Assembly (NCBI GenBank): GCA_018883725.1
Contig: JAHLFN010000081.1
Location: forward strand, 1 to 54,582
Length of the DNA stretch: 54,582 nt
Direction: 5' to 3'
From: Candidatus Fusobacterium pullicola
GTDB lineage: Bacteria > Fusobacteriota > Fusobacteriia > Fusobacteriales > Fusobacteriaceae
A model generated the notes under the pieces. That model saw only the letters and a list, made by a program, of their open reading frames with translations, was not told the DNA's origin and searched no databases. This document shows positions 22,015 through 36,457 of this stretch, in pieces (within the stretch, counting starts at the first letter, position 1; each line of letters begins with the position of its first letter). The translations under genes and the position numbers were made by a program.

Positions 22015-22026
22015 GAAAAAAAGGAA

Positions 22027-22093
22027 ATATGGCAAAATAACGGCAACGTTATGACGCAAAGCTATAGGGTCTTATGGAGACAGCCAGTTGCAA
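22027..22093 (+). promoter_or_regulatory. Cyclic-di-GMP-I (GEMM) riboswitch 1
   Basis: The aptamer core matches the class I c-di-GMP riboswitch. A first hairpin ATAACG-GCAA-CGTTAT has a GNRA tetraloop. The invariant GACGCAAAGC follows, then AGGGTC and a second stem-loop closing with GACAGCC, and TTGC at 22088-22091 pairs back to GCAA at 22032-22035 (P1). It sits between a promoter and a terminator ahead of a pilin-like gene. The cGAMP-binding variant differs by only a few positions and is not excluded by eye. Confidence 0.9.
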
Positions 22094-22132
22094 CTTAAAA
22101 GATATAAAAATCTTTCAAGTTGCATTTTTTTT
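22089..22132 (+). terminator. Riboswitch 1 expression-platform terminator
   Basis: TGCAACTT (22089-22096) pairs with AAGTTGCA (22117-22124), an inner AAAGAT/ATCTTT helix extends the hairpin, and eight T follow. The 5' arm takes the same bases as the 3' strand of aptamer P1, so c-di-GMP binding should hinder termination (a predicted ON switch). Confidence 0.85.
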
Positions 22133-22161: not shown

Positions 22162-22623
22162 ATGAAAAAATTATTATTATTATTTGGAATTATGTCTAGC
22201 TTATTAATGGGAGAGAATGAAAAATCTGTAGATGTACAAGTTACAGCAAGGGTAATAAAACCTATTGAAGTTGTAAATAAAAAGGATGTAGAATTTGGAA
22301 CTATTGTAGTTGGACAAGAGAATGTAAAAGCAAAGTCAAATGGTTCTATAACTTTTTCTGGAGAGGAAAAAATAAGAGTAAGTTGGAAAGCTGAAGATGG
22401 TCACGGATTTAATAAGATAAATGATCCGATAGTGGTTACTATAGCTAATGGAGAAAATGAGATTAAGACACTAATATCAACTGAAGAAGTTTCAAATGGA
22501 GTTTTAAACTTAAATGGTACTCAAGAAACAATAGTGTTTAGTGGAAAAATAGATAAAGTACCAGAAGTGGCTCCAGGTAGTTATTCTGGAAACTTCACAG
22601 TAAGAGCAGAGTATATAGATTAA
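22162..22623 (+). CDS. Pilin-like subunit A (DUF4402/CS1-like)
   Basis: A 153-residue exported protein. The signal peptide is about 17 residues (MKKLLLLFGIMSSLLMG). The mature N-terminus has alternating hydrophobic residues (KSVDVQVTARVIKPIEV), like the donor strand of CS1/CFA-type pilins. VEFGTIVVG and the closing PGSYSGNFTVRAEY are typical of DUF4402-like beta-sandwich subunits. The other subunit genes in this locus share the same pattern. It is the first gene after c-di-GMP riboswitch 1. It may be a minor or initiating subunit, or an alternative major pilin. The family assignment is by pattern only; the usher and chaperone genes downstream support it. Confidence 0.75.
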   Translation: MKKLLLLFGIMSSLLMGENEKSVDVQVTARVIKPIEVVNKKDVEFGTIVVGQENVKAKSNGSITFSGEEKIRVSWKAEDGHGFNKINDPIVVTIANGENEIKTLISTEEVSNGVLNLNGTQETIVFSGKIDKVPEVAPGSYSGNFTVRAEYID

Positions 22624-22652
22624 TAAAAAAGAGAAATAGAGGGAGGATTGAG

Positions 22653-24758
22653 TTGCGAGTGAAAAGATTAGTATTTTATTTTTTCCTAATAACTAGTATA
22701 GTTTTTGGGGGAGAAGGGTTAAAGGTAGGATATCCTTTAAATCTTACAGATATGTATTTTTACAAAGATTTAGAAAGTATTGCCTATAAAGGAATTTATA
22801 GTGATTTATTAAAGGATTTTAATAAAGATGGTAAATATGATTTTGAGTATCAAGGTGGAAATGAAACAGGAGATTTAGTTTTAAGAGTAACACAAACTGA
22901 AGAAAATGGGAATTATAACTATATAGTTACTCCATTTAGTTATAGAGCGGTTGTGTTAGTAAATATGGATAGTATGTTTACTAAGGTAGATGATTTATAT
23001 GGACTAACAGTAGGATATATAAAAAATCAAAGAGGAATAGAAGCGATTGAAGGTAGAAATAAAGGAGTAGAGTTTTATAAGACTTCTTTTGAAAATGAAA
23101 ATCAAGCAATATTAGCTTTAAAAAATAAAAAAGTAGATGCTATTGTTTTAAAAGATTGGAATGAAAGTAATCCATTAGAAAAGAATTTTAGAGTAATTAG
23201 TACTGTACTTACAAAGGAACAAATTGGAGTTAATAAAACAAAAGTTGATTTATATGAAAGTCTAAAAAAATATTTTGAAACTTTAAATGATACGACTCTT
23301 AACGAGATTGTTGATAAAAATAGAATAGCTTTTTATACATACCTTTTAAAAGATACTCCAGATTATAGTTTTATAAAGGAGAAATATAAGAGTTTAAAAA
23401 TATCTTTACCAAAAGATAAATATTATTTACCAATTTACTATGAAGAAAATGGAATATATAAAGGGTTATTATTTAATATCTTAGATGATATAGAAAAAAT
23501 AGTAGGAATACCTTTTGAAGTTATAGCTGATAGAGAAAAAGCTGATATAAGAGGATTATATATAAGTAAGGAAACAGATGCAAATCTTGTAGCTACAAAA
23601 CCTTACTATAAAACTGACATAGCTGTTGCAAGTACAAAAAAATCTTATTTGATGACAGAGATAAGCGATTTGGATAACTCAAAAGTTATAGTAGTTGAAA
23701 ATCAAACTGTAGGAAAGTATGTAGAAGATAGAACTGAGGGAGTAACTTTGGTGACAGCTCCTACAATTCAAGAGGGAGTAAATAAACTAATTGCTGGAGA
23801 GGGAGAATACATAGTTTCATATAGTAACCCTTTAAGAGGGGTAATTTTAAATACCTTTGTTGATAAAAAGGTGGGAATTATAGGGAGAATTAATGAAAAA
23901 TTTGGTATCTCTATGGGAGTAAAAGCAGATGATGAAGCACTATTTAATATAATTAATACAATATTAAATAGTTATTCAGTAGAAGAAACAACATTAGAAA
24001 CAAATAGAACAGCTCAAGTAATAATAAAAACAGACTATTCTATGGCTGCTAAAATTGGAATTCCATTAGCAATTATAGCTCTTATATTAGCAATAGCTTT
24101 AAGAAAGGCTGTAATTAATAAAAGAAAAGCAGAGAAAATAGGTAATACTTTATTAGAAACAATGGTAAAGGTAAATCAATTAAAACAAACAGAGTCAGGA
24201 TTACATGCTAAAAGAATATCTCTTCATGCTGAAGTTTTAGGAGAGAAGTTAGGATTATCAAAAGATTTAATAGATGGAATGAAACAATATGCAATAATCC
24301 ATGATATTGGAAAAGTTATTGTTCCAGCTGATATCTTAAATAAGAGTGGAAAGTTAACTCCAGAAGAGTTTGAAGTAATGAAAAAACACTCAGAGTTTGG
24401 ATATGAGATTATAAAAGAACTTGAATTAGGTAAGATAGCAGAAAATGTAGCTAGATATCACCATGAAAAATGGAATGGAAAGGGATATCCATTAGGATTA
24501 AAAGGAGAAGAGATTCCATTAGAGGGAAGAGTAATAGGTATTTTAGATGTATATGATAGTATGAGAGAGGATAAAGTATATAAAAAAGGATTATCTCATC
24601 AAGAAGCGATTGAAATTATTAAAAATGAGAGAGGGGTAAGTTTTGATCCAAAAATAGTAAAAGTGTTTTTAGAAAATGAAAAACTATTTGAAGATATCTA
24701 TAACAAAACTTCTGGAAAAATAGATCTAGTAGAAGAGTACTATAGAATAATGAAATAA
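22653..24758 (+). CDS. Periplasmic-sensor HD-GYP c-di-GMP phosphodiesterase
   Basis: About 701 residues. A signal sequence is followed by two tandem Venus-flytrap modules of the SBP_bac_3 type (about 20-240 and 245-455). A transmembrane segment (near 470-490, IGIPLAIIALILAIALR) then leads to a cytoplasmic HD-GYP domain with HDIGK and YHHEKWNGKGYPLG. The layout is that of BvgS-like sensors, but with a c-di-GMP hydrolase as output. A ligand in the periplasm, probably an amino acid or small organic anion, would adjust c-di-GMP. The start is TTG at 22653, 6 bases after GGGAGG; GTG at 22659 is the alternative. It is the second gene of the riboswitch 1 unit. Confidence 0.88.
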   Translation: MRVKRLVFYFFLITSIVFGGEGLKVGYPLNLTDMYFYKDLESIAYKGIYSDLLKDFNKDGKYDFEYQGGNETGDLVLRVTQTEENGNYNYIVTPFSYRAVVLVNMDSMFTKVDDLYGLTVGYIKNQRGIEAIEGRNKGVEFYKTSFENENQAILALKNKKVDAIVLKDWNESNPLEKNFRVISTVLTKEQIGVNKTKVDLYESLKKYFETLNDTTLNEIVDKNRIAFYTYLLKDTPDYSFIKEKYKSLKISLPKDKYYLPIYYEENGIYKGLLFNILDDIEKIVGIPFEVIADREKADIRGLYISKETDANLVATKPYYKTDIAVASTKKSYLMTEISDLDNSKVIVVENQTVGKYVEDRTEGVTLVTAPTIQEGVNKLIAGEGEYIVSYSNPLRGVILNTFVDKKVGIIGRINEKFGISMGVKADDEALFNIINTILNSYSVEETTLETNRTAQVIIKTDYSMAAKIGIPLAIIALILAIALRKAVINKRKAEKIGNTLLETMVKVNQLKQTESGLHAKRISLHAEVLGEKLGLSKDLIDGMKQYAIIHDIGKVIVPADILNKSGKLTPEEFEVMKKHSEFGYEIIKELELGKIAENVARYHHEKWNGKGYPLGLKGEEIPLEGRVIGILDVYDSMREDKVYKKGLSHQEAIEIIKNERGVSFDPKIVKVFLENEKLFEDIYNKTSGKIDLVEEYYRIMK

Positions 24759-24786
24759 ATGCAATAGGCAAAAAGAAGGTGAAGAC

Positions 24787-26217
24787 TTGAAAAATAAATT
24801 TTTGATTTTCTTATTTCTTGTTTGTTCTTCAATAGGTGTTTTGGGGGAAAATATTGGAAATATAAAAGAAGAGTTTTTTATAACAGAATATACAGAAGAA
24901 AGCTCAACTGAAAATCTAAAAATAGAACAGGAATTGATGATACAGACTGTAGATCCTGTGAAATTAGCAGATAGTTATTCAAGAAGAGTAACAGGCTTAA
25001 TTTATGATACTCTTTTTGTAAATAGTAATGGAGAGATTGTTCCAAATTTAGTTGAAAGATATAATTGGCAAGAGGAAAATAAATTATTTATAAAACTTAA
25101 ATCAGGAATAAGATTTCATGATGGAAGTGAGCTTACTTCTAAAGATATTGAGAATTCGTTAATGAGATTAAAGAAAGAGGGTACAGTATCAGAGATGTAC
25201 AACTCTATTCTAGGAATAGAGATAGTAGATAAGTATAGTTTTATAATTAATTTAAATATAAGAGATGGATTATTATTAAATGCTTTATCAAACTCTTTTT
25301 CAAGTATTGTAAAAGTGGATAATGGTAAATTTTATGGAACAGGACCATATTCAATAGAAGTTTTTAATGAAGGTGTTTTAAAATTAAAGAATTTTGATAA
25401 ATGCTTTGATAGAAATGAAAATATGTATAAAGAGATAGAGATAAGATGGGATCTAAATCCTAATCAAAGAATCATAAAGTATACGAATGATATTAACAAT
25501 TTTGTTTTTGATTTGTATAAAGAGGATATAGAGAAGGCAGAGGATTATGATTTACTAAGTGATGAAGCAGTAGTAGAGAAAAGTCCAATTTATGATACTT
25601 TAGGATTGATGTTTGGAAAAAAATATACTATAGATGAGAGAGTAGCTATAGAGAGAGCTATATATCAAAATGTAGATGGTTTTTTCCCAGAAGATTTAGT
25701 TGAAGCAGAGCTTTCTAAGATTGATAAAAATTATAATTTAAATGAAGCTAAAAAATTAATTAGTGAAGTAGGTTTAAAATCTAAGAAAATAGATATAATG
25801 GTCTTAAATACTGAACATAATATGAAAATTGCAAATTATGTTAAGAAAAATTTAGAAGACGCTGGAATGAAAGTAACTTTACTTCCTCATGGAATGATAT
25901 CTTTTTATCAAAAACTTTATGCTAGAGATTATGATACTGCAATATACAATATAAATATTAGTACAGTTTATCCAATATTAAGTTTGGAAAAAATACTGAT
26001 CTATGATATAGGGGATAAGGAAACAGCGAATGCTTTACTTCCTTTTATTGAATTGATGAGAAAAGAAAAAAATCCTGAGAAAGTAAAAAAAATATTTGAT
26101 AAGGTTTTATCTTTGGTTAATAAGAATATGTTATATATTCCTATTGAACATAAGGAAACTTTCCAAATAGCTGAAGAAGAGAATATGAAAAGATTTCATA
26201 AGATAGTAGGATATTAA
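24787..26217 (+). CDS. Orphan family 5 (peptide-type) solute-binding protein
   Basis: A 476-residue exported protein with a short signal peptide ending around VLGEN. It resembles SBP family 5 proteins such as OppA/DppA: a DPVKLADSYSRRV opening, then the signature region NLVERYNWQEENKLFIKLKSG and FHDGSELTSKDIENSL. There is no lipobox cysteine, so it is probably soluble in the periplasm. No ABC permease or ATPase is nearby. Lying directly after the Venus-flytrap HD-GYP sensor, it could deliver a ligand to that sensor rather than feed a transporter. The start is TTG at 24787 after AAGGTG. The family call is reliable; the role is inferred. Confidence 0.75.
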   Translation: MKNKFLIFLFLVCSSIGVLGENIGNIKEEFFITEYTEESSTENLKIEQELMIQTVDPVKLADSYSRRVTGLIYDTLFVNSNGEIVPNLVERYNWQEENKLFIKLKSGIRFHDGSELTSKDIENSLMRLKKEGTVSEMYNSILGIEIVDKYSFIINLNIRDGLLLNALSNSFSSIVKVDNGKFYGTGPYSIEVFNEGVLKLKNFDKCFDRNENMYKEIEIRWDLNPNQRIIKYTNDINNFVFDLYKEDIEKAEDYDLLSDEAVVEKSPIYDTLGLMFGKKYTIDERVAIERAIYQNVDGFFPEDLVEAELSKIDKNYNLNEAKKLISEVGLKSKKIDIMVLNTEHNMKIANYVKKNLEDAGMKVTLLPHGMISFYQKLYARDYDTAIYNINISTVYPILSLEKILIYDIGDKETANALLPFIELMRKEKNPEKVKKIFDKVLSLVNKNMLYIPIEHKETFQIAEEENMKRFHKIVGY

Positions 26218-26241
26218 TCAGATAAAAGGGGGAGAAGGGAA

Positions 26242-27060
26242 ATGAAAAGATTATATTGTATAATACTAAGCTTGATATTATTTTCTTTTTCTTATGGAGA
26301 CAATGAGTATACAGCTTATATAAAAAGAGTTAACTCAATTGGTACTTTTATAGGAGATACAGCACAAGGTGTAGAGTATAATTTTGATATATGTATTGAA
26401 CCAAGAAATAATGGAAATGCTTTAGAAGACGATTATTTTATTAAAGAAGATAAAGCAGAGAATAGCAAAATAATTATGACTCTAGATAAGATACAATTGC
26501 TTGAAGGAAGACCAAAATATTACTTTCCTATTAACAGTGATAATAAGTTAGATGAGATGAAATTGAAAGTGACTGGAAGAATAAATTTAAAAAATGGAAT
26601 TGAGAATCTAGTTGGTACAGAGAGAATAAAAATTGGTGATATACAAGAAAAAAATCATAAAAGAGGAGTTTATTTAACATTTGACTATAGTATACTAAAA
26701 AAAGAGGATACAGTAAGTTTAAGAGTTGTAAGAGATATGGACTTAGGAGTAGCTGTAGCTGGATATCCATTAAGAAGTAGTAAACCAGCTATTGTAGAGA
26801 TAAAAGGAATAAAAAGTAATGGAGCAAGAGTAGAAGTAGAAAAAGAAGTAGCAATCATAAATGAAGCTAAGAAAAGCTCTTTAAATGTAATGCTTGACGT
26901 AGAAAATTATAAAGCACGTCAAACTAGTGATAAATCAGTTATAGAGTTAAAACCAACAAATGATTCTGTAGAGATAAAAATAAATGGATATAGTAAAACA
27001 GAAAAAAATACGCCATCTGGAGTATATAAAGGAGCTTTTAAAGTGAGAGTGATTTACTGA
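26242..27060 (+). CDS. Two-domain putative tip adhesin / minor pilus subunit
   Basis: A 272-residue exported protein (signal peptide about residues 1-19, ending FSYG). The N-terminal 160 residues are not recognised. The C-terminal 110 residues follow the subunit pattern of this locus: MDLGVAVAGYP, then IVEIKGIKSNGARVEVE, and the closing TPSGVYKGAFKVRVIY. A unique N-domain fused to a pilin-like C-domain is the layout of chaperone-usher tip adhesins such as CfaE and FimH. Its stop overlaps the usher start (ATGA at 27060), so the two are translationally coupled. The receptor-binding role is inferred. Confidence 0.65.
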   Translation: MKRLYCIILSLILFSFSYGDNEYTAYIKRVNSIGTFIGDTAQGVEYNFDICIEPRNNGNALEDDYFIKEDKAENSKIIMTLDKIQLLEGRPKYYFPINSDNKLDEMKLKVTGRINLKNGIENLVGTERIKIGDIQEKNHKRGVYLTFDYSILKKEDTVSLRVVRDMDLGVAVAGYPLRSSKPAIVEIKGIKSNGARVEVEKEVAIINEAKKSSLNVMLDVENYKARQTSDKSVIELKPTNDSVEIKINGYSKTEKNTPSGVYKGAFKVRVIY

Positions 27061-29690
27061 TGTGGAGACTAAAAAATAAGTTATCAATCATAGGGATAAT
27101 TGTTTTTTTATTAGGAACTCAGACAGTGTATACTAAAAATCCAGAGAAAGATATCGAGGATGTATATTTAGAGATAAGAGCTGAAAGATTAAATGATGAT
27201 TTCTATATGATAAAGTATGATAATAGTAAAAATGAAGCATATATAGGGTTAAAATCATTTTTCTTCTTTTTACAATTATTTAGTTTAGATGTAAATACTC
27301 AAAACTATACAGTTAGTGGAATGATAAACGGAAAAGATATATCTACAAGATTTACTCAAGATGAAGCCTTTGTAGATGAAAATGATGAGTTATATGTAAA
27401 AAGTAAAGCATTAATTGAAAAAATGGATTTTGAGTATCTAACTTTAGACATGGAAACTTTAGTCTTAGATGTAAATCCTAATTTCGTATTACCTTATGAA
27501 GAGAAAGAGCAAGGAAGAGTAGAGAGACTTAGATTAGAGGAAAGAAAAGTACTTGAGGGAGAGCAATTTGATTTAGAGATGAAAAGAAAATTGATTTCTC
27601 CAGGGATATTGAAGTTAAAGTATGACTTAAATGATGTAAAAAATAGTGATGATTATAACTTTAGTTATGAGTATGGTTCACAACTTCTATATGGTGAACT
27701 TTATGTATCTGGAGATATAAAGCCTGAAAGTGAATTAAATGAGATCAATTTAAAATATACTGATATTATAGAAGATAATGATTTAACAATAGGATATTTA
27801 GATACTACTTTTCCTAGTTTTGCAAGTTTAGAGTCAGATTTAATAGGGATAAGTTTGGATAACTACGATACATATTCACAAACAGAGAATGGAATAACAG
27901 TAATTAGAGGAGAAGCAGATGATGCGGATTCGATAGAGTTATATAGAAATGGAATGTTAGTAGATTACTTAACTTCTCCACCAAGAAATTTTGAATTTAG
28001 ATTGGCAGATGGAAGTACTAATGCAAGATATTTATTAAAAATATATTATAAAAATGGTGGAATAGAGGAGAGATATGTATATTCTTTAAATGATATGGAT
28101 GCTCTTGCAAAAGGAAAATGGAAGCCAGTTATTCAAATAGGAAAAACAAAAGAAAAAGGAGATTTTCAAGCATTAGTTAAGAGTTACTATGGGGTAACAG
28201 ATAAGTTTACTCTAGGAGCAGGATATCTGAATTTAATTAACTCAGATGGAAGAAACTTGAAAATGATAGAGAATGACTTTATCTATAATACAAGACATCT
28301 GAATTATCCAACTTTAATTAACTTTACGAATTATTATGAAGTAGATAAGAATGAAGAGAGTTATAATTTAAGTATTAGTCAAAATATAAATGATTATGAA
28401 CTAAAATTTACAGAGGAAAAGTATTCACCATTTGTTGTAGGAGAAGAGGGAACAAAAAAATATGATTCGTTATCTTTGTACAAACCTTTTGAATATAATT
28501 CATATGAAATAGGAGTGTCTAAAACTACAGAGTTAATGAGATCCTTTAATACAAATGAGAGCATAGAAAATACTACAAAAGATATTTATGGTGCTTTCTA
28601 TACATCCTATTTTAATCCATGGTCATTTTCTTTTAGAGTAACTAGAACTTTAAGTGGAGACTATAAATATATAACTTATGAACCAAGTATCTCTTATTCG
28701 GGTTGGGCACTTATAGTTTTAGATGCAGAAATAACAAAGTATGATGATTATAGTAAATATTTTGAATCATATGGATTAAGAGCAGATAAAAGAAGAGTAG
28801 AGATATTGAAAGATAGATTGTATATGGATCTAGGTTTAGAAGCAAAATTTGTAAAGGGAGTTACTTCAGGAAATAAAGATAGCTTTGTTTATGGAATTAC
28901 ATTCAGTATGGATTTAGAAGATTATATCAATATAGATGTAAATAGTGATATAGAGGTTGCAGATAATGGAAAAAGTACTTCTACTACTGGTTTAACAGTA
29001 ACTAAAGCAATAAATTTAGCAACTCCTTTAGCAAAAATGGATAATGATATATCTGTTAATAACTATACAATTCAAGGAAAAGTTTTCTTAGATAGAAATG
29101 GAAATGGAGTATATGATAAGAAAATAGATGTTCCTTTAGAAGGTGTTGGAGTTTTAATAAATAACCAAGAATTTTTAACAGATAAGTATGGAAACTATCT
29201 AGGAGATAATTCAATTATAGACGAGATAATAACACTAGATGTAAATAGAAAAACAATAGATCCTATGTATAAAAATTCTAAGGGAACTATAAGAATAAAA
29301 GCACGTAACTCTAACTCTTTAAAGGTAGATATTCCGATCGAAGTAGTATCAATGCTAACTGGAAATATTTGGAATACAGAAGACTTTACAGAGAGAGAGT
29401 TTACTCAAAATATTGTTATGTCAAGTATTCAATTAGAAAAAGATGGAAAGGTTTATAAAGAGATAGACCCAGAGTTTGATGGATTATTCTTCTTTGACGA
29501 TATTCCTCCTGGAAAATATAATATGAAATTTATTTATTTAGGACAGGAAAATGTTAAGTTTTCACCTGAAAATATAGAGGTAAATGTAAAATTACAAGAT
29601 CCAGATGAAGGAGAGTATTTTGAAGGTTTAGATACTAAGATGGTAAGAGAAGAAGAGGTAGAAAATACAGAGGATATTAATAATTATTAA
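27060..29690 (+). CDS. Outer-membrane usher (alternate/CS1-like chaperone-usher family)
   Basis: An 876-residue outer-membrane protein with an N-terminal signal segment. The N-domain (about 30-160) has the YIGLKSFFFFLQLFSLDV region seen in CS1/TcfC-type ushers. The plug region is clear near residues 285-345: ADSIELYRNGMLVDYLTSPP, then a strand pair and GIEERYVYSLND. A long run of alternating beta strands (about 355-670) forms the barrel. The C-terminal domain opens with VFLDRNGNGVYDKK, a Ca-binding-like SdrB/carboxypeptidase-regulatory motif common in alpha-type ushers. Ushers polymerise and secrete pilus subunits. It is coupled to the adhesin gene upstream and followed by a repeat protein and the chaperones. 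Confidence 0.78.
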   Translation: MWRLKNKLSIIGIIVFLLGTQTVYTKNPEKDIEDVYLEIRAERLNDDFYMIKYDNSKNEAYIGLKSFFFFLQLFSLDVNTQNYTVSGMINGKDISTRFTQDEAFVDENDELYVKSKALIEKMDFEYLTLDMETLVLDVNPNFVLPYEEKEQGRVERLRLEERKVLEGEQFDLEMKRKLISPGILKLKYDLNDVKNSDDYNFSYEYGSQLLYGELYVSGDIKPESELNEINLKYTDIIEDNDLTIGYLDTTFPSFASLESDLIGISLDNYDTYSQTENGITVIRGEADDADSIELYRNGMLVDYLTSPPRNFEFRLADGSTNARYLLKIYYKNGGIEERYVYSLNDMDALAKGKWKPVIQIGKTKEKGDFQALVKSYYGVTDKFTLGAGYLNLINSDGRNLKMIENDFIYNTRHLNYPTLINFTNYYEVDKNEESYNLSISQNINDYELKFTEEKYSPFVVGEEGTKKYDSLSLYKPFEYNSYEIGVSKTTELMRSFNTNESIENTTKDIYGAFYTSYFNPWSFSFRVTRTLSGDYKYITYEPSISYSGWALIVLDAEITKYDDYSKYFESYGLRADKRRVEILKDRLYMDLGLEAKFVKGVTSGNKDSFVYGITFSMDLEDYINIDVNSDIEVADNGKSTSTTGLTVTKAINLATPLAKMDNDISVNNYTIQGKVFLDRNGNGVYDKKIDVPLEGVGVLINNQEFLTDKYGNYLGDNSIIDEIITLDVNRKTIDPMYKNSKGTIRIKARNSNSLKVDIPIEVVSMLTGNIWNTEDFTEREFTQNIVMSSIQLEKDGKVYKEIDPEFDGLFFFDDIPPGKYNMKFIYLGQENVKFSPENIEVNVKLQDPDEGEYFEGLDTKMVREEEVENTEDINNY

Positions 29691-29705
29691 AAAGGAGTAA
29701 TAACA

Positions 29706-30611
29706 TTGAAGAATTCAAATTTAGTGAAAATTTTTATGATTATGTTTCTATTTACCTGTTCTTATGCTGAAGTAAACAGAGTTGCAAAACTTAGTGATAA
29801 AACAGTAAAAAATAATGTAGTATATCTGAAAGGGGAGAAAACTCCCTTTTCGGGTAAAATACAAGATGGGGGAATAGAGCAAGAGTACAGAAATGGAATT
29901 AAAAATGGAATATTTAAAGGAAAAATTCAAATAGATGGAAAAGATTACCTATATGAAGGAAAATATGTTGAGGGGATCAAGGACGGAATTTGGACTTTAA
30001 AATATTTAAATGGCAAAAAAAGAGCTGTAGTTGAGTATAGTTATGATAAGCCAGTAAATAAATGGAAATACTACTATGAAAATGGACAATTAGAAAGTGA
30101 AGAAACTTTTGATAAGAGTGGAGTACTTTCAGGAGAGGTTGCAGTTTATGATGAAGAGAGAAATGTGTTGAAAAAAGCCAATTATTTGAATGGTTTTTTA
30201 CAAGGAGAAGTAGTTTTTTATGAAAGTAAAGGGGTACTAGATACAGTAGCAAATTTTGATAAAGGAAAACTTAATGGAAAAGTAGAAGTTTTTTCGATAA
30301 ATAGTTTACAATTAGAGGGAAATTATAAAGACAATAAAAGGGTATCAGTATGGAAACTTTATTATACAAGTGGTGATTTAAAGGTTACTGTTCCATATAG
30401 AAATGGATTAAAATCTGGAAAGTCTATTGTATATGATAGAGCAGGAGGAATAGTTCAAGTAAACTATTATAAAGATAACAATGAAGTTACAGCAGATGGA
30501 AAATTAATAAGAGAAGCAAAACCATTTAAGGATGGAATAGTAGAAAAATTTAAAAAGTTTAATGCTAATCTAAATAGCTTAAAGGTCAATAAAGCTTTAT
30601 CAGAAGTTTAG
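29706..30611 (+). CDS. MORN-variant (YwqK-like) repeat protein, exported
   Basis: A 301-residue protein with a signal peptide (about 21 residues, ending SYAEV). It consists of about nine repeats of the MORN-2/YwqK type, each near 22 residues, such as EYRNGIKNGIFKGK, YYENGQLESEETFDKSGVLSG and VPYRNGLKSGKSIVYDRAGG. These repeats form elongated beta sheets and usually act as scaffolds. Lying between the usher and the chaperones, it may be an accessory periplasmic or outer-membrane part of the pilus. The start is TTG at 29706, 7 bases after AAAGGAG. The repeat call is sure; the role is not known. Confidence 0.8.
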   Translation: MKNSNLVKIFMIMFLFTCSYAEVNRVAKLSDKTVKNNVVYLKGEKTPFSGKIQDGGIEQEYRNGIKNGIFKGKIQIDGKDYLYEGKYVEGIKDGIWTLKYLNGKKRAVVEYSYDKPVNKWKYYYENGQLESEETFDKSGVLSGEVAVYDEERNVLKKANYLNGFLQGEVVFYESKGVLDTVANFDKGKLNGKVEVFSINSLQLEGNYKDNKRVSVWKLYYTSGDLKVTVPYRNGLKSGKSIVYDRAGGIVQVNYYKDNNEVTADGKLIREAKPFKDGIVEKFKKFNANLNSLKVNKALSEV

Positions 30612-30622
30612 TGGAGGAAATA

Positions 30623-31072
30623 ATGAAAAAAATAATACTTATATTTATCTTAGCAATATTCTCAACATTGAGCTATTCACTGAACTTCTCGATAGCTCCT
30701 ACAAAATTTGAAGTAGATTTAAATAAAAGAGAGACACAAGAAGCTTTTATAATTAATAATACTTCTTCTCCTCTAAGAATAGAGGTATATTTAGATACAC
30801 TTGAGGGATATGAAGAAAAAAATTTAAACTCTAATATAGTAATTTTCCCTAAAAAAGTATCAGTGAGACCAGGGGGAAAACAGACAGTAAGATTTAGAGT
30901 TAAAGATACAGAGAACCTAAAAGATGGAGAATACAGAAGTTTATTAGTATTTAAAGAGATTCCAAAGGATGTAAAAACTACAGGAACTAATAAAAGTGAT
31001 GAGATAATTACTGAATTTTCATTTATAACTGAATTAGCGGTTAGAATAATAGGAGTAAAAGGAGAGAAGTAA
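30623..31072 (+). CDS. One-domain periplasmic pilus chaperone
   Basis: A 149-residue exported protein with a signal peptide ending about SYSLN. It matches the N-terminal Ig-like domain of fimbrial chaperones: SIAPTKFEVDLN, IINNTSSPLRIEVYL, then VSVRPGGKQTVRFRV and a closing REYR-like GEYRSLLVFKEIP. It stops near residue 149, where the full chaperone of this locus (31614-32360) continues with a second domain. The ATG at 30623 lies 5 bases after GGAGG. Its stop overlaps the next pilin gene's ATG by one base. It may be a partner dedicated to that subunit. Confidence 0.72.
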   Translation: MKKIILIFILAIFSTLSYSLNFSIAPTKFEVDLNKRETQEAFIINNTSSPLRIEVYLDTLEGYEEKNLNSNIVIFPKKVSVRPGGKQTVRFRVKDTENLKDGEYRSLLVFKEIPKDVKTTGTNKSDEIITEFSFITELAVRIIGVKGEK

Positions 31073-31593
31073 TGAAGAAGATATTAAAAATATGCTCACT
31101 TCTATTTACTATTTCAACTCTATCTTTAGCCCTTGAAAGCTATGTAAGTACTACAGATGAAGAGGTTGAAGCAAGATTAAAGATAAGTGCTACAGTTGTT
31201 GAGGATGTAAGTGTAGAAACTCAAAGTGTTGAATTTGGAAGTGTAGTATCGGGAGTAGAGAGAAGTAATCCCAAAGTGGATGGGAAGATAAACATTACAG
31301 GAGAGATTGGAAGAGGGGTAACTATTGCAATTAACCACAATGGAAATAGAATAGATATGGCAGATAATAGCAAACAGGTAGAATTGAAAAATTCTAAAGA
31401 TGAGAAATTAGAAGGAATAAGTTATTATCCAGAGTTTTCTAGTGGTATAGAGAAAAAGAAGATAACAGGAAATAAATTTATATTAAATGGTAGAACGGCT
31501 ACTATGAATGTCGGTGGAAAATTAGTAGTTCCAAAAACAATAAATACAGGAAACTATACTACTAATATGGCAATAAGAGTTTACTATAATTAA
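31072..31593 (+). CDS. Pilin-like subunit B (DUF4402/CS1-like)
   Basis: A 173-residue exported protein (signal peptide about 20 residues). The mature N-terminus shows the donor-strand pattern EARLKISATVVEDVSVETQ, followed by VEFGSVVSGVERSNPKVDGKINITGEIG and the closing GNYTTNMAIRVYY. It is clearly related in layout to the subunits at 22162 and 32550, especially in the YYPEFSS segment that recurs as YHPEFST in the latter. It is translationally coupled to the one-domain chaperone upstream and precedes the two-domain chaperone. Confidence 0.75.
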   Translation: MKKILKICSLLFTISTLSLALESYVSTTDEEVEARLKISATVVEDVSVETQSVEFGSVVSGVERSNPKVDGKINITGEIGRGVTIAINHNGNRIDMADNSKQVELKNSKDEKLEGISYYPEFSSGIEKKKITGNKFILNGRTATMNVGGKLVVPKTINTGNYTTNMAIRVYYN

Positions 31594-31613
31594 GAGAATA
31601 GAAGGAGAGACAC

Positions 31614-32360
31614 ATGAAAAAGTTAACAGCGAGTTTATTGTTTTTTATTTTAGGTGTTATGTCATACTCTTTAAACTTTACTGTTTATCCAACAAGATTT
31701 GAGGTAGATAGTAAGAAAGTAACTACTGAAGAGATGACAATTGTAAATAATACAAATGGTCCACTGAGAGTAGAGATATATCCAGAGGGGGATATAGAGT
31801 TTGGAGAAGAGTATAATTTGAATTCAAATATTAAACTTTTCCCTAAGGCTGTAGCAGTAAAACCAGGAGGTAAGCAAGCTGTAAGATTTAGAGTAAAACC
31901 TGACACAAAAATGAAAGATGGAGAGTACAGAAGTTATATTACATTTAAAGAGATACCTTATGATATAAAATCTACAGCTAGTGAGGAAAAGAAGGAAGCT
32001 GAAGGGGTAACAACAGGAATTAACTTTATAACAGAGATATCAATACCAGTGTTTAGTATAGGAGAGAATAAGATAGTAAAGGGAGAGATGTCGAACTTTA
32101 AGTATCATTATGATGGCAAAGATATGGCATTTTCTTTTGATACAAAGTCTGAAGGGAATACTGCTGTAATCTATAAATATAGCTTAAAAATAGATGGAGA
32201 GGAGCCTTTAGAGGGAATACTTGGTTATAGCAAAAGAGATGGAGAAGGAAAGTTAGAAATAAGTATGGAACTTAAAGAGGGATTAAAAGGAAAGAGTGGA
32301 ACATTGAGAATTTATGACCAAGTTAATAAAGAGTATTTTAACCAAAAAATAAAATTATAA
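31614..32360 (+). CDS. Two-domain periplasmic pilus chaperone
   Basis: A 248-residue exported protein (signal peptide ending about SYSLN). The N-domain has FTVYPTRFEVDSKKV, IVNNTNGPLRVEIYP and VKPGGKQAVRFRVKP, closely similar to the one-domain chaperone at 30623. A linker with EEKKEAEG leads to a second beta domain (about 150-248) ending NQKIKL. Fimbrial chaperones donate a strand to subunits and deliver them to the usher. It is the last gene of the riboswitch 1 unit. The second riboswitch and major pilin follow. Confidence 0.75.
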   Translation: MKKLTASLLFFILGVMSYSLNFTVYPTRFEVDSKKVTTEEMTIVNNTNGPLRVEIYPEGDIEFGEEYNLNSNIKLFPKAVAVKPGGKQAVRFRVKPDTKMKDGEYRSYITFKEIPYDIKSTASEEKKEAEGVTTGINFITEISIPVFSIGENKIVKGEMSNFKYHYDGKDMAFSFDTKSEGNTAVIYKYSLKIDGEEPLEGILGYSKRDGEGKLEISMELKEGLKGKSGTLRIYDQVNKEYFNQKIKL

Positions 32361-32375
32361 AAAATAAAAAAAAGC

Positions 32376-32404
32376 TTGCAAAAATAAAAAAACAGGTGTA
32401 CAAT
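32376..32404 (+). promoter_or_regulatory. Promoter of the second riboswitch unit
   Basis: TTGCAA at 32376-32381, 17 bp, then TACAAT at 32399-32404, directly after the chaperone gene. A weaker match than the first unit's promoter. Confidence 0.6.
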
Positions 32405-32426
32405 TAGAATATAAAGAAAGAAAAAT

Positions 32427-32493
32427 ATTTGGCAAAACAGTGGAAACGCTGTGACGCAAAGCTATAGGGCCTTCTAAAATGGCAGCCAGTTGC
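32427..32493 (+). promoter_or_regulatory. Cyclic-di-GMP-I (GEMM) riboswitch 2
   Basis: The core is nearly identical to riboswitch 1: GGCAAAA, a first hairpin ACAGTG-GAAA-CGCTGT with a GNRA tetraloop, GACGCAAAGCTATAGGG, a second stem-loop, and GCCAGTTGC. The stem sequences differ but keep pairing (for example ATAACG/CGTTAT versus ACAGTG/CGCTGT), which supports a real conserved RNA. It precedes the probable major pilin. Confidence 0.9.
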
Positions 32494-32523
32494 AGGATAA
32501 TTTAATTAAATTATCCTTTTTTT
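32494..32523 (+). terminator. Riboswitch 2 expression-platform terminator
   Basis: A perfect 24-base palindrome (32494-32517) starting immediately after the aptamer's TTGC is followed by a T-run. Unlike platform 1, its arm does not obviously overlap P1, so the switching direction is uncertain. Confidence 0.85.
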
Positions 32524-32549
32524 ATTAAAAAATTTTAGGAGGGATTTAT

Positions 32550-33059
32550 ATGAAAAAATTATTATTATTAGCAGGAATCTTAGTAGTTGGAGTAGCATCT
32601 TTTGCAGGAGAAGCTGATTGGAGTAGCAATTCAGTAGAAAAAAAATTACAAGTAACAGCAACAGTTGTAAAAAATCTAGAAATAGATACACAGGATGTTA
32701 AATTTGGTGAAGTGGCAGCAGGAATGAAAGGAATAGCACCTAAACAAAATGGGAAAATAGAAATAAAAGGTGAGGCTGGAGCAACAGTAAAAGTTATGTT
32801 GAAAGATGAAGGTGGGAATGAAGTTAAAAAAGGAACTGTAGTAAGATTATGGGGACCTACTTCATCTAATACTAAAGAAAATATTGATTATCATCCAGAA
32901 TTTTCTACTAAAGATTATGGATTAGTTGATAATGGTGGTTATGGTTGGAAAGATATAGATGTAAAAGGAAAATTAGATGTACCAGAAAATGCTACTCCAG
33001 GTGAATATAGTGCTGTTTTAACAGCTCGTGTTTCTTATGTAAAATTTGCTGATAAATAA
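32550..33059 (+). CDS. Probable major pilin (DUF4402/CS1-like subunit C)
   Basis: A 169-residue exported protein with signal peptide MKKLLLLAGILVVGVASFAG. The mature N-terminus, SVEKKLQVTATVVKNLEID, is strikingly like that of the CFA/I and CS1 major pilins, whose donor strand begins VEKNITVTASV. VKFGEVAAGMKG, GKIEIKGEAG and the closing TPGEYSAVLTARVSY follow the subunit pattern. It has its own promoter and c-di-GMP riboswitch, a strong ribosome site (AGGAGGG) and a terminator directly after it. These are the signs of a gene made in excess over the rest of the locus, as expected of a shaft subunit. Confidence 0.78.
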   Translation: MKKLLLLAGILVVGVASFAGEADWSSNSVEKKLQVTATVVKNLEIDTQDVKFGEVAAGMKGIAPKQNGKIEIKGEAGATVKVMLKDEGGNEVKKGTVVRLWGPTSSNTKENIDYHPEFSTKDYGLVDNGGYGWKDIDVKGKLDVPENATPGEYSAVLTARVSYVKFADK

Positions 33060-33089: not shown

Positions 33090-33122
33090 ATACCCTAGTG
33101 GGAAACTACTAGGGTATTTTTT
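33090..33122 (+). terminator. Terminator after the major pilin gene
   Basis: ATACCCTAGT (33090-33099) pairs with ACTAGGGTAT (33108-33117), followed by T. It lies between pilin and porin genes, so the porin would receive only read-through unless it has its own promoter. Confidence 0.9.
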
Positions 33123-34333: not shown

Positions 34334-36457
34334 ATGAGAAACAAATTTTTTGATATGAAAATAATGATAATAGGGATATTATTTACTATATTAATAGTTA
34401 TCTTTCAAATATATAAACATAGAATAACAGAAGAGAATCAAATTAAAAATGTAGGGATAATTTTAACTAATAAAATAAAGGTTAAGATGGAAGTTTTGGA
34501 GGATGTAACAGAGTATTTGAAAGAATTTACTATAATAAGAAAGGGAAATTTATCACAAGAGGATTTTTATAAAATTTCCAAATATTTATATTCACTTTAT
34601 AAAGATAATGAAATTATGGGGATATTTTATTTAAAAGGTGGAAAAGTTGAATATATATATCCATTGAAAAGAAATGTAGGGACATTAGGTTTAGATATTT
34701 TTAAGGCTGAAGATAGGAAAGAAGATGCTTATTTAGCAATGGAGAAAAAACAAGCAGTAGTATCTGGACCATATGATTTATACCAAGGTGGTAGAGGATT
34801 AATTATAAGAAATCCGATTTTTATGGAAGAAGAGGATGGTAGTGATAAATTTATTGGATTTAGTGTTGTTATTGCAAAATTTCCAGATTTTATAGATAGT
34901 ATTGACTTAAATGAGGTTTCAGATTATAACTATAAAATAACTACATTTTCAAATGGAGAGGAAAAATTAATTGCTAAAAGTAAAGGTGAGATGACATTAC
35001 CTAGAGTATTTACTGTAAACATTTTTAATAATAAGTGGAAAATAGCCTTAGAACCAATTAATTTTCTGGGGAAATTAGATGGAGTTTTGGTTGTATTTGT
35101 GAGTTTGATTATTTTGACTCTAATACTATCAAATCTTTCACATAGATATAAAGAAAATCGTATGTTACTTGAAGAGCTAGAATTAGAAAAGGAGTTATTT
35201 GAAGTAGCTTTAGAAAATAGTAATATGGTTATCTTTACATATGATGATGAAACTGGAAAAATAATTTTTAGAAATAAAAGATATTTTATAGAGGAATATA
35301 GTAATTATACAGAGATATACCCTGAAATGTTAGAGGGAAGTCTAATTATAGAAGAGGGAAAAGAAAAACTTATAGAGATATTCTCGGCGATAAAAGGTGG
35401 AAGAAAGAGTGCTTCTTGCATAGTTAAAAAGAAAAATGAAAAATATAGATATATTTGGGAAAAAATAACACTGCTAAATCCCTTTGTTGATAAATATGGT
35501 ATGAGAAAAATAATTGGAGTAGTTGAAAATATAACTGATTCTAAAGAAAAAGAGTTAAAGTTAGAAAGAGAAAGACATTATAAGAATGCCTTGAATGAAG
35601 GTTCTGTATTTTATTTAGAGGGAAATATTACAGCAAATAGCATACTGTTATTAAATGTTGAAAATTTTGAAGAGAATAAAATAGAGTATGAGAGTTTCAT
35701 AAAAAAATATATAAAAAATAATATTTATGAAGATGACCAAAAATGGCTAGAGAAAGCTTTAAGTATAGAAGGATGTAAAAAAAAATATTTTGAATATGGG
35801 AGTAAAGCTTTTACAGTAGAGTATCGTTGTCTTCATGAAGAAAGATATATTTGGGTAAGAGCAAATATTTATTTTACAGCGACTCCTAAAAATGATGAGT
35901 TGAATATTGTAATAGTAGTTAGAGATATAGATGAAGAGAAAAAAAGGGAGATGTCTTTAATAAATCAAGCAGAAAGAGATATGTTGACAGGATTATACAA
36001 TAGAAGTGCTATAAAAAATAGAATAAATGATTTTTTCTCTCATGATGTAAGAAGTGGAGCATTCTTTATTTTAGATTTAGATAATTTCAAAAGTATAAAT
36101 GATAACTATGGTCATCAATATGGAGATATTGTTTTAAAAGATACAGCAAAAATTTTAGTAAATAGTTTTAGAGAAGAGGATTTAGTAGCTAGATTAGGTG
36201 GAGATGAGTTTGTTGTTTTTATGAAGGATATTAAAAGTAGTGAAATTGCAGAAAGAAAAGCAAAATTATTAACTACCGCTTTGAAAAGAGTTTATAAAGA
36301 GCAAGGAAAAAAAATAGAGATAAGTGCTTCAATAGGAGTAGTAGTAACTTTCAATAGTAAGAAAGATTTTGAAACTCTTTATTTAGCTGCAGATGACTTA
36401 ATGTATGATATAAAAAGAGAAAAGAAAGACGGATATAAGTTGGTTGTAAATTTTTAA
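34334..36457 (+). CDS. Membrane diguanylate cyclase (extracytoplasmic sensor, PAS, GGDEF)
   Basis: A 707-residue protein. Transmembrane segments near residues 9-25 and 248-265 enclose an extracytoplasmic sensor, probably Cache-like. Two PAS-like regions (about 285-415 and 420-535) lead to a GGDEF domain at the C-terminus with DLDNFKSINDNYGHQYGD and ARLGGDEFVVF. The inhibitory I-site RxxD is present as REED, exactly five residues before GGDEF, so product inhibition is expected. It makes c-di-GMP from GTP. It follows the pilus locus, which is read by two c-di-GMP riboswitches, and overlaps in direction with a second hybrid kinase 18 bp downstream. Confidence 0.92.
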   Translation: MRNKFFDMKIMIIGILFTILIVIFQIYKHRITEENQIKNVGIILTNKIKVKMEVLEDVTEYLKEFTIIRKGNLSQEDFYKISKYLYSLYKDNEIMGIFYLKGGKVEYIYPLKRNVGTLGLDIFKAEDRKEDAYLAMEKKQAVVSGPYDLYQGGRGLIIRNPIFMEEEDGSDKFIGFSVVIAKFPDFIDSIDLNEVSDYNYKITTFSNGEEKLIAKSKGEMTLPRVFTVNIFNNKWKIALEPINFLGKLDGVLVVFVSLIILTLILSNLSHRYKENRMLLEELELEKELFEVALENSNMVIFTYDDETGKIIFRNKRYFIEEYSNYTEIYPEMLEGSLIIEEGKEKLIEIFSAIKGGRKSASCIVKKKNEKYRYIWEKITLLNPFVDKYGMRKIIGVVENITDSKEKELKLERERHYKNALNEGSVFYLEGNITANSILLLNVENFEENKIEYESFIKKYIKNNIYEDDQKWLEKALSIEGCKKKYFEYGSKAFTVEYRCLHEERYIWVRANIYFTATPKNDELNIVIVVRDIDEEKKREMSLINQAERDMLTGLYNRSAIKNRINDFFSHDVRSGAFFILDLDNFKSINDNYGHQYGDIVLKDTAKILVNSFREEDLVARLGGDEFVVFMKDIKSSEIAERKAKLLTTALKRVYKEQGKKIEISASIGVVVTFNSKKDFETLYLAADDLMYDIKREKKDGYKLVVNF

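Follow-up and report, generated by a model that had tools for sequence, protein, structure and literature searches.

The fimbrial cluster and its two riboswitches

The window, by which we mean the whole stretch of 54,582 nucleotides that was analysed, carries a fimbrial gene cluster with two riboswitches, RS1 and RS2, both on the + strand. RS1 (22021-22095), the comparison unit, matched the covariance model RF01051 with 58.1 bits, and a cmscan search aligned RS2 (32421-32497) with the full length of the same GEMM-I model (positions 1-87; 62.3 bits, E 7e-10, against a gathering score of 35 bits). No other RF01051 match was present in the whole 1.94-Mb Fusobacterium mortiferum genome, which is 99% complete. 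RS1 is followed by a gene run (22162-32360, +) comprising a pilin, an SBP3-HD-GYP protein, SBP5, a DUF4402-like protein, an usher-like protein, MORN_2, a chaperone, a pilin and a chaperone-like protein. RS2 has a probable promoter visible in the sequence, TTGCAA-N17-TACAAT (32376-32404, +), with a start near 32411; in the second F. mortiferum strain its -10 element reads TATAAT and an alternative TAGAAT is lost. Behind RS2 lies a pilin gene of 169 amino acids (32550-33059, +) that is followed by a terminator (33090-33117, +). An earlier note on this DNA had proposed a split between assembly machinery and major pilin, and the gene order bears it out: the RS1 operon holds minor pilins, chaperones and the usher-like gene, and RS2 a single pilin gene with its own terminator.

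PapD_N scored above its cut-off on 30611-31072, indicating a PapD-like chaperone. Searching PDB chains by sequence with profiles of the usher-like protein and the pilin gave no relatives, and predicted folds were therefore used instead. The best matches of the RS2 pilin model were chaperone-usher pilins (top E 1.4e-3), and those of the usher-like model, which is of low confidence, were FimD/PapC. With a chaperone, an usher and Ig-like pilins predicted side by side, the regulated genes have the make-up of a chaperone-usher fimbria. Five further species of the genus have, with minor differences, the same succession of riboswitch, pilin, HD-GYP, usher-like, chaperone, riboswitch and pilin/chaperone unit, and related-species clusters contain up to four riboswitches each. 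The RS2 pilin (32600-33059) shares only 56-57% identity between the two F. mortiferum strains, whereas identity in its flanks is 95-100% over several hundred bases, and leader and signal peptide are conserved. This is the pattern to be expected of a major subunit that is exposed and diversifying, or suggests allele exchange.

Close by (34334-36457, +) lies the gene for the one GGDEF protein that was found in the whole genome, a CHASE-GGDEF protein with GHQYGD, RxxD and GGDEF motifs. Three HD-GYP proteins were found genome-wide, two of them in the RS1/RS2 cluster and one of these in the RS1 gene run; neither an EAL nor a PilZ protein was found in the genome. The SBP3-HD-GYP gene of the RS1 run (22653-24758) probably encodes a c-di-GMP phosphodiesterase, and from its position negative feedback is possible; c-di-GMP riboswitches rarely control genes of c-di-GMP metabolism (PMC6366702). 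No c-di-GMP-II riboswitch was found in the genome, by a search that gave no match in any control genome either. Neither of two paralogous fimbrial clusters, located on contigs C19 and C54 (L136:803-12896 and L137:1392-4498), showed a riboswitch match or a decayed riboswitch, and only the cluster in the window appears to be wired to c-di-GMP among the fimbrial clusters of this genome. Across the family, riboswitches occurred in none of the 17 genomes lacking GGDEF proteins and in 37 of the 44 that have them (Fisher P = 6e-10, uncorrected for phylogeny). Four species combine a single GGDEF gene with riboswitches; in three of these the gene and the riboswitches share a contig and are close together, and in the fourth the gene is on another contig. 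Since the only GGDEF protein and two of the three HD-GYP proteins are encoded in the same cluster, the arrangement resembles a c-di-GMP circuit that is close to self-contained and serves one fimbria.

Identity and divergence of the two aptamers

The ligand-site residues G20 (32431), A47 and C92 (32493) of RS2 are all intact, and its P2 and P3 helices, GNRA tetraloop and L3 region (32470-32480) are present. P2 (32437-32452) reads ACAGTG-GAAA-CGCTGT in RS2 and ATAACG-GCAA-CGTTAT in RS1. The pairs A-U, U-A, A-U, A-U, C-G and G-C of RS1 are hence replaced in RS2 by A-U, C-G, A-U, G-C, U.G and G-C; two pairs are altered on both sides and one has turned into a wobble, in keeping with the compensatory stem changes that had been claimed. 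In 112 short-type relatives the P2 pairs are 96-100% canonical, with many pair types. Judged by its sequence, RS2 is a genuine class I c-di-GMP aptamer; the riboswitch class is a known one, the platform uncommon. The class I assignment made earlier is upheld by the RF01051 score together with the retained G20, A47 and C92. Position 20 is G, not A, in RS1 and RS2, and a cGAMP-sensing GEMM-I variant was rejected for both. A Hypr-type cyclase, in which a serine replaces the canonical aspartate (PMC6456294), was likewise rejected, as the sole GGDEF protein reads GHQYGD, which we take as the canonical aspartate position. A20, the mark of the cGAMP variant, does occur in the same cluster of related species, where some riboswitches have it (L037 2409-2485 and 15586-15661; L036 15190-15265; L034 17246-17322) next to others with G20.

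For comparison, 61 Fusobacteriaceae genomes were searched, 37 of which had an RF01051 match, giving 143 sites (141 above the cut-off outside the window, plus RS1 and RS2). RS1 alone among them, in both F. mortiferum strains, has GCAA rather than GAAA as its P2 tetraloop, and it alone, again in both strains, carries TTATGGAG as L3 where the others have a TTTAAAATG-like loop; tetraloop and L3 span 22043-22078. On these sequence features RS1, not RS2, is the odd aptamer of the pair. A tetraloop mutation abolished binding in the Cd1 riboswitch (PMC9262584). The joint change of tetraloop and receptor in RS1 makes different affinities, and hence different thresholds, plausible for the two leaders. 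The idea of different thresholds, raised earlier from the platforms of the two units, thus stands as plausible, with the GCAA tetraloop and altered L3 of RS1 as its strongest evidence.

Terminator position and the ribosome-binding site of RS2

The RS2 terminator (32494-32523, +) consists of a perfect palindrome of 24 bases, AGGATAATTTAATTAAATTATCCT (32494-32517), forming a 10-bp hairpin with a dG of -8.2, followed by a U-tract; as had been described, it lies directly after the aptamer, its first base being C92+1. The RS1 terminator (22089-22124) starts at -2, from U90, and overlaps C92 at 22091. It therefore takes the 3' end of P3 as well as C92, and the RS2 terminator takes neither. When the terminator was located at each site and the start of its 5' arm measured relative to C92, starts at or before C92 were found at 102 of the 143 sites, RS1 among them, and at 95 of 110 short-P3 sites, some distant long-P3 sites being poorly classified. 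The different expression platform claimed for RS2 is therefore confirmed, in that its start at C92+1 departs from the overlap in RS1 and most relatives. Making C92 unavailable weakened the RS1 terminator from -13.8 to -0.7 kcal/mol and left that of RS2 at -8.2, whereas making C92+1 to +3 unavailable abolished the RS2 terminator (-8.2 to 0). The RS2 hairpin is weak for the family, in which the median is -13.95 and 8% are weaker. By folding, aptamer and terminator are mutually exclusive in RS1 (-28.8 kcal/mol free vs -21.8 with the aptamer enforced) and are predicted to coexist in RS2 at the termination point (-25.7 vs -24.6 kcal/mol). The pilM arrangement, with C92 sequestered by the terminator, is thus present in RS1 at -2 and absent from RS2 at +1. 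We infer from this layout that RS1 is an ON switch.

The earlier note had also contrasted the two units by whether the terminator shares the P1 strand. The RS2 terminator is indeed free of such a strand, but the contrast does not hold, for no P1 helix is supported in either leader and the RS1 terminator accordingly shares none. Flank pairing in 96 related leaders of the overlapping-terminator type is about as frequent as after shuffling of the flanks among sites (z <= 2.7), and competition for a P1 strand was rejected as a general rule. A P1 helix in RS2 would consist of one U-A pair and two U.G pairs, at a folding cost of about 10 kcal/mol when it is enforced. No stable antiterminator was found in RS2 by secondary-structure folding, and the Cd1-type OFF arrangement, a stable antiterminator taking the aptamer 3' strand, was not seen at that level. 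The 5' arm of the RS2 terminator pairs upstream transiently, with a probability of up to 0.39 before the hairpin is made and 0.54 in read-through RNA; once the hairpin has been transcribed this falls to 0.00-0.02. Because the pairing is lost on completion of the hairpin, no stable antiterminator is predicted, and an upstream antiterminator was rejected. In another genus, four leaders appear to lack a terminator (L046:3581-3656, L050:1713-1788, L047:3701-3776 and L016), and their 5' flank TTAAAATAAAG recurs downstream as its complement CTTTATTTTAA; this suggests another platform in these leaders, probably a translational one.

Folding predicts an 11-bp pairing between the L3 of RS2, CCUUCUAAAAU (32470-32480), and the complementary Shine-Dalgarno (SD) region AUUUUAGGAGG (32532-32542, +). 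In thermodynamic folding, which leaves out tertiary contacts, ligand and kinetics, the full leader reached -34.0 kcal/mol free vs -26.1 with the aptamer enforced, so that the L3:SD fold lies 7.9 lower. The SD:aptamer pairing probability was 0.99 in both of the F. mortiferum strains compared, in which L3 and SD are identical, and this value held over five transcript starts and with about 50 nt of coding sequence added; enforcing the aptamer lowered total SD pairing from 0.99 to 0.30. At sites where the terminator starts at +1 to +3, pairing was 0.99, 0.87, 0.68 and 0.12 (F. mortiferum strains counted once), against a median of 0.04 at 85 sites with overlapping terminators. With RS2 left out, pairing above 0.6 occurred at two of three abutting sites vs five of 85 overlapping ones (P = 0.016), an association that is post hoc, with hypothesis and test drawn from one data set and few independent sites. 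An L3 of 10 bases was present at three of six sites starting at 0 to +3 vs 4/93 (P = 0.03 without RS2). Among 109 foreign L3 loops put into RS2 a single one reached 0.9, and it came from another abutting site. Pairing still averaged 0.81 in RS2 with shuffled spacers, and the AGGAGG-CCUU match therefore does much of the work. Family-wide, L3:SD pairing was not enriched (P = 0.88), and it was rejected as a mechanism of the whole family; mainly sites with abutting terminators show it.

A predicted translational switch and its alternatives

We propose that a rise in c-di-GMP would turn the genes of both riboswitches ON by different routes. RS1 would act by classical antitermination, terminator and ligand competing for C92. 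In RS2 the terminator would have slipped one base off C92; ligand and terminator could then coexist, and any transcriptional control would be weak and leaky at best. Translation, not termination, would now be the main point of decision: without ligand, L3 would pair with the SD region and hide the ribosome-binding site (RBS), and with ligand bound P3 would close and free it. As the ligand-free fold is the one that hides the RBS, the predicted sign is ON again, and RS2 would add pilin output to one c-di-GMP-controlled fimbrial programme. Both the sign and the translational step of RS2 are deduced from modelled folds, and we give about even odds to RS2 being an ON switch that works mostly through translation. 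A class I riboswitch that combines transcriptional with translational action has a precedent in Bc1 (PMC11218506). The model requires read-through of a hairpin that the ligand does not clearly prevent, and the missing family-wide enrichment of L3:SD pairing weighs against it. A broader reading, which we regard as tentative and somewhat improbable, is that sister aptamers, supplied by the one diguanylate cyclase of the genome, decide at different points, RS1 at termination and RS2 at translation with its tetraloop-receptor loop as the anti-Shine-Dalgarno strand, and so set the order of assembly machinery and strain-variable pilin.

The same leader could be an ordinary transcriptional ON switch, in which the ligand holds the residues after C92 (U19-A93, U18.G94, U17.G95), removing the only G-C pairs of the terminator, and the L3:SD match is incidental. 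The loss of the predicted terminator when C92+1 to +3 are blocked and its weakness for the family would fit, as would pilM, where residues after C92 boost affinity about 43-fold (PMC9262584); but covariation in P1 does not exceed chance and the single U-A and two U.G pairs are costly to enforce, and we consider this explanation unlikely, if a serious one. Predicted coexistence of aptamer and terminator can also be taken to mean that the leader binds c-di-GMP while the hairpin fails to respond, leaving constant low expression with control elsewhere. Unresponsiveness of this kind is known from a terminator of the class I riboswitch Bc1 (PMC11218506), and not all C. difficile c-di-GMP riboswitches are functional (PMC6366702). 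We find this improbable, however, given that aptamer core and leader are kept between strains whose pilins have diverged so far, and that further species of the genus also have a riboswitch at the second pilin unit. Coexistence is, moreover, the arrangement of Cd1 (PMC9262584), and Vibrio cholerae has two class I riboswitches of opposite response (PMC6366702), so that an OFF switch of sign opposite to RS1, which the earlier note had considered possible, deserves mention. The transient upstream pairing of the terminator arm would favour it, but that pairing vanishes with the completed hairpin and the translational alternative fold likewise predicts ON; with no stable antiterminator and a ligand-free fold predicted to hide the RBS, opposite sign is unsupported and is, in our view, very improbable.

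The c-di-GMP system of F. mortiferum is unusually small: the genome yielded one GGDEF and three HD-GYP proteins but no EAL or PilZ protein, its two riboswitches share a 16-kb cluster, and one fimbria appears to be what the second messenger mainly serves. Its paired aptamers lend themselves to a clean test of platform drift from transcriptional to translational control around an unchanging aptamer, and of how sensors of a single molecule can come to differ in threshold.

The translational ON model for RS2 can be set beside four known systems. The Geobacter metallireducens pilM riboswitch is an ON switch that loses binding when the terminator takes C75, the equivalent of C92 (PMC9262584). It likewise places a GEMM-I fold beside pilus genes, and since the RS1 terminator takes C92 as well, RS1 has the same ON layout; pilM, however, senses cGAMP, and the RS2 terminator leaves the ligand-pairing C free. 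In Clostridioides difficile Cd1, a class I OFF switch, the full aptamer lacks a P1 helix, none being supported in RS2 either, and aptamer and terminator coexist, as predicted for RS2, but an antiterminator takes C87 (PMC9262584), and no stable one was found in RS2. For Bacillus thuringiensis Bc1, also class I, a dual transcriptional and translational action has been proposed, and one terminator persists in the ligand-bound state (PMC11218506). Bc1 differs in having two terminators and an incoherent scheme, and it hides its RBS at high c-di-GMP, whereas RS2 is predicted to do so at low c-di-GMP. Like RS2 in the proposed model, the C. difficile riboswitch Cdi-2-4, upstream of pilA1, uses c-di-GMP to turn a major pilin gene ON (PMC6366702). 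Cdi-2-4 belongs to class II and serves type IV pili, in contrast to the class I aptamer and chaperone-usher-type pilin of RS2, and in the RS1/RS2 cluster a second riboswitch heads the assembly genes.
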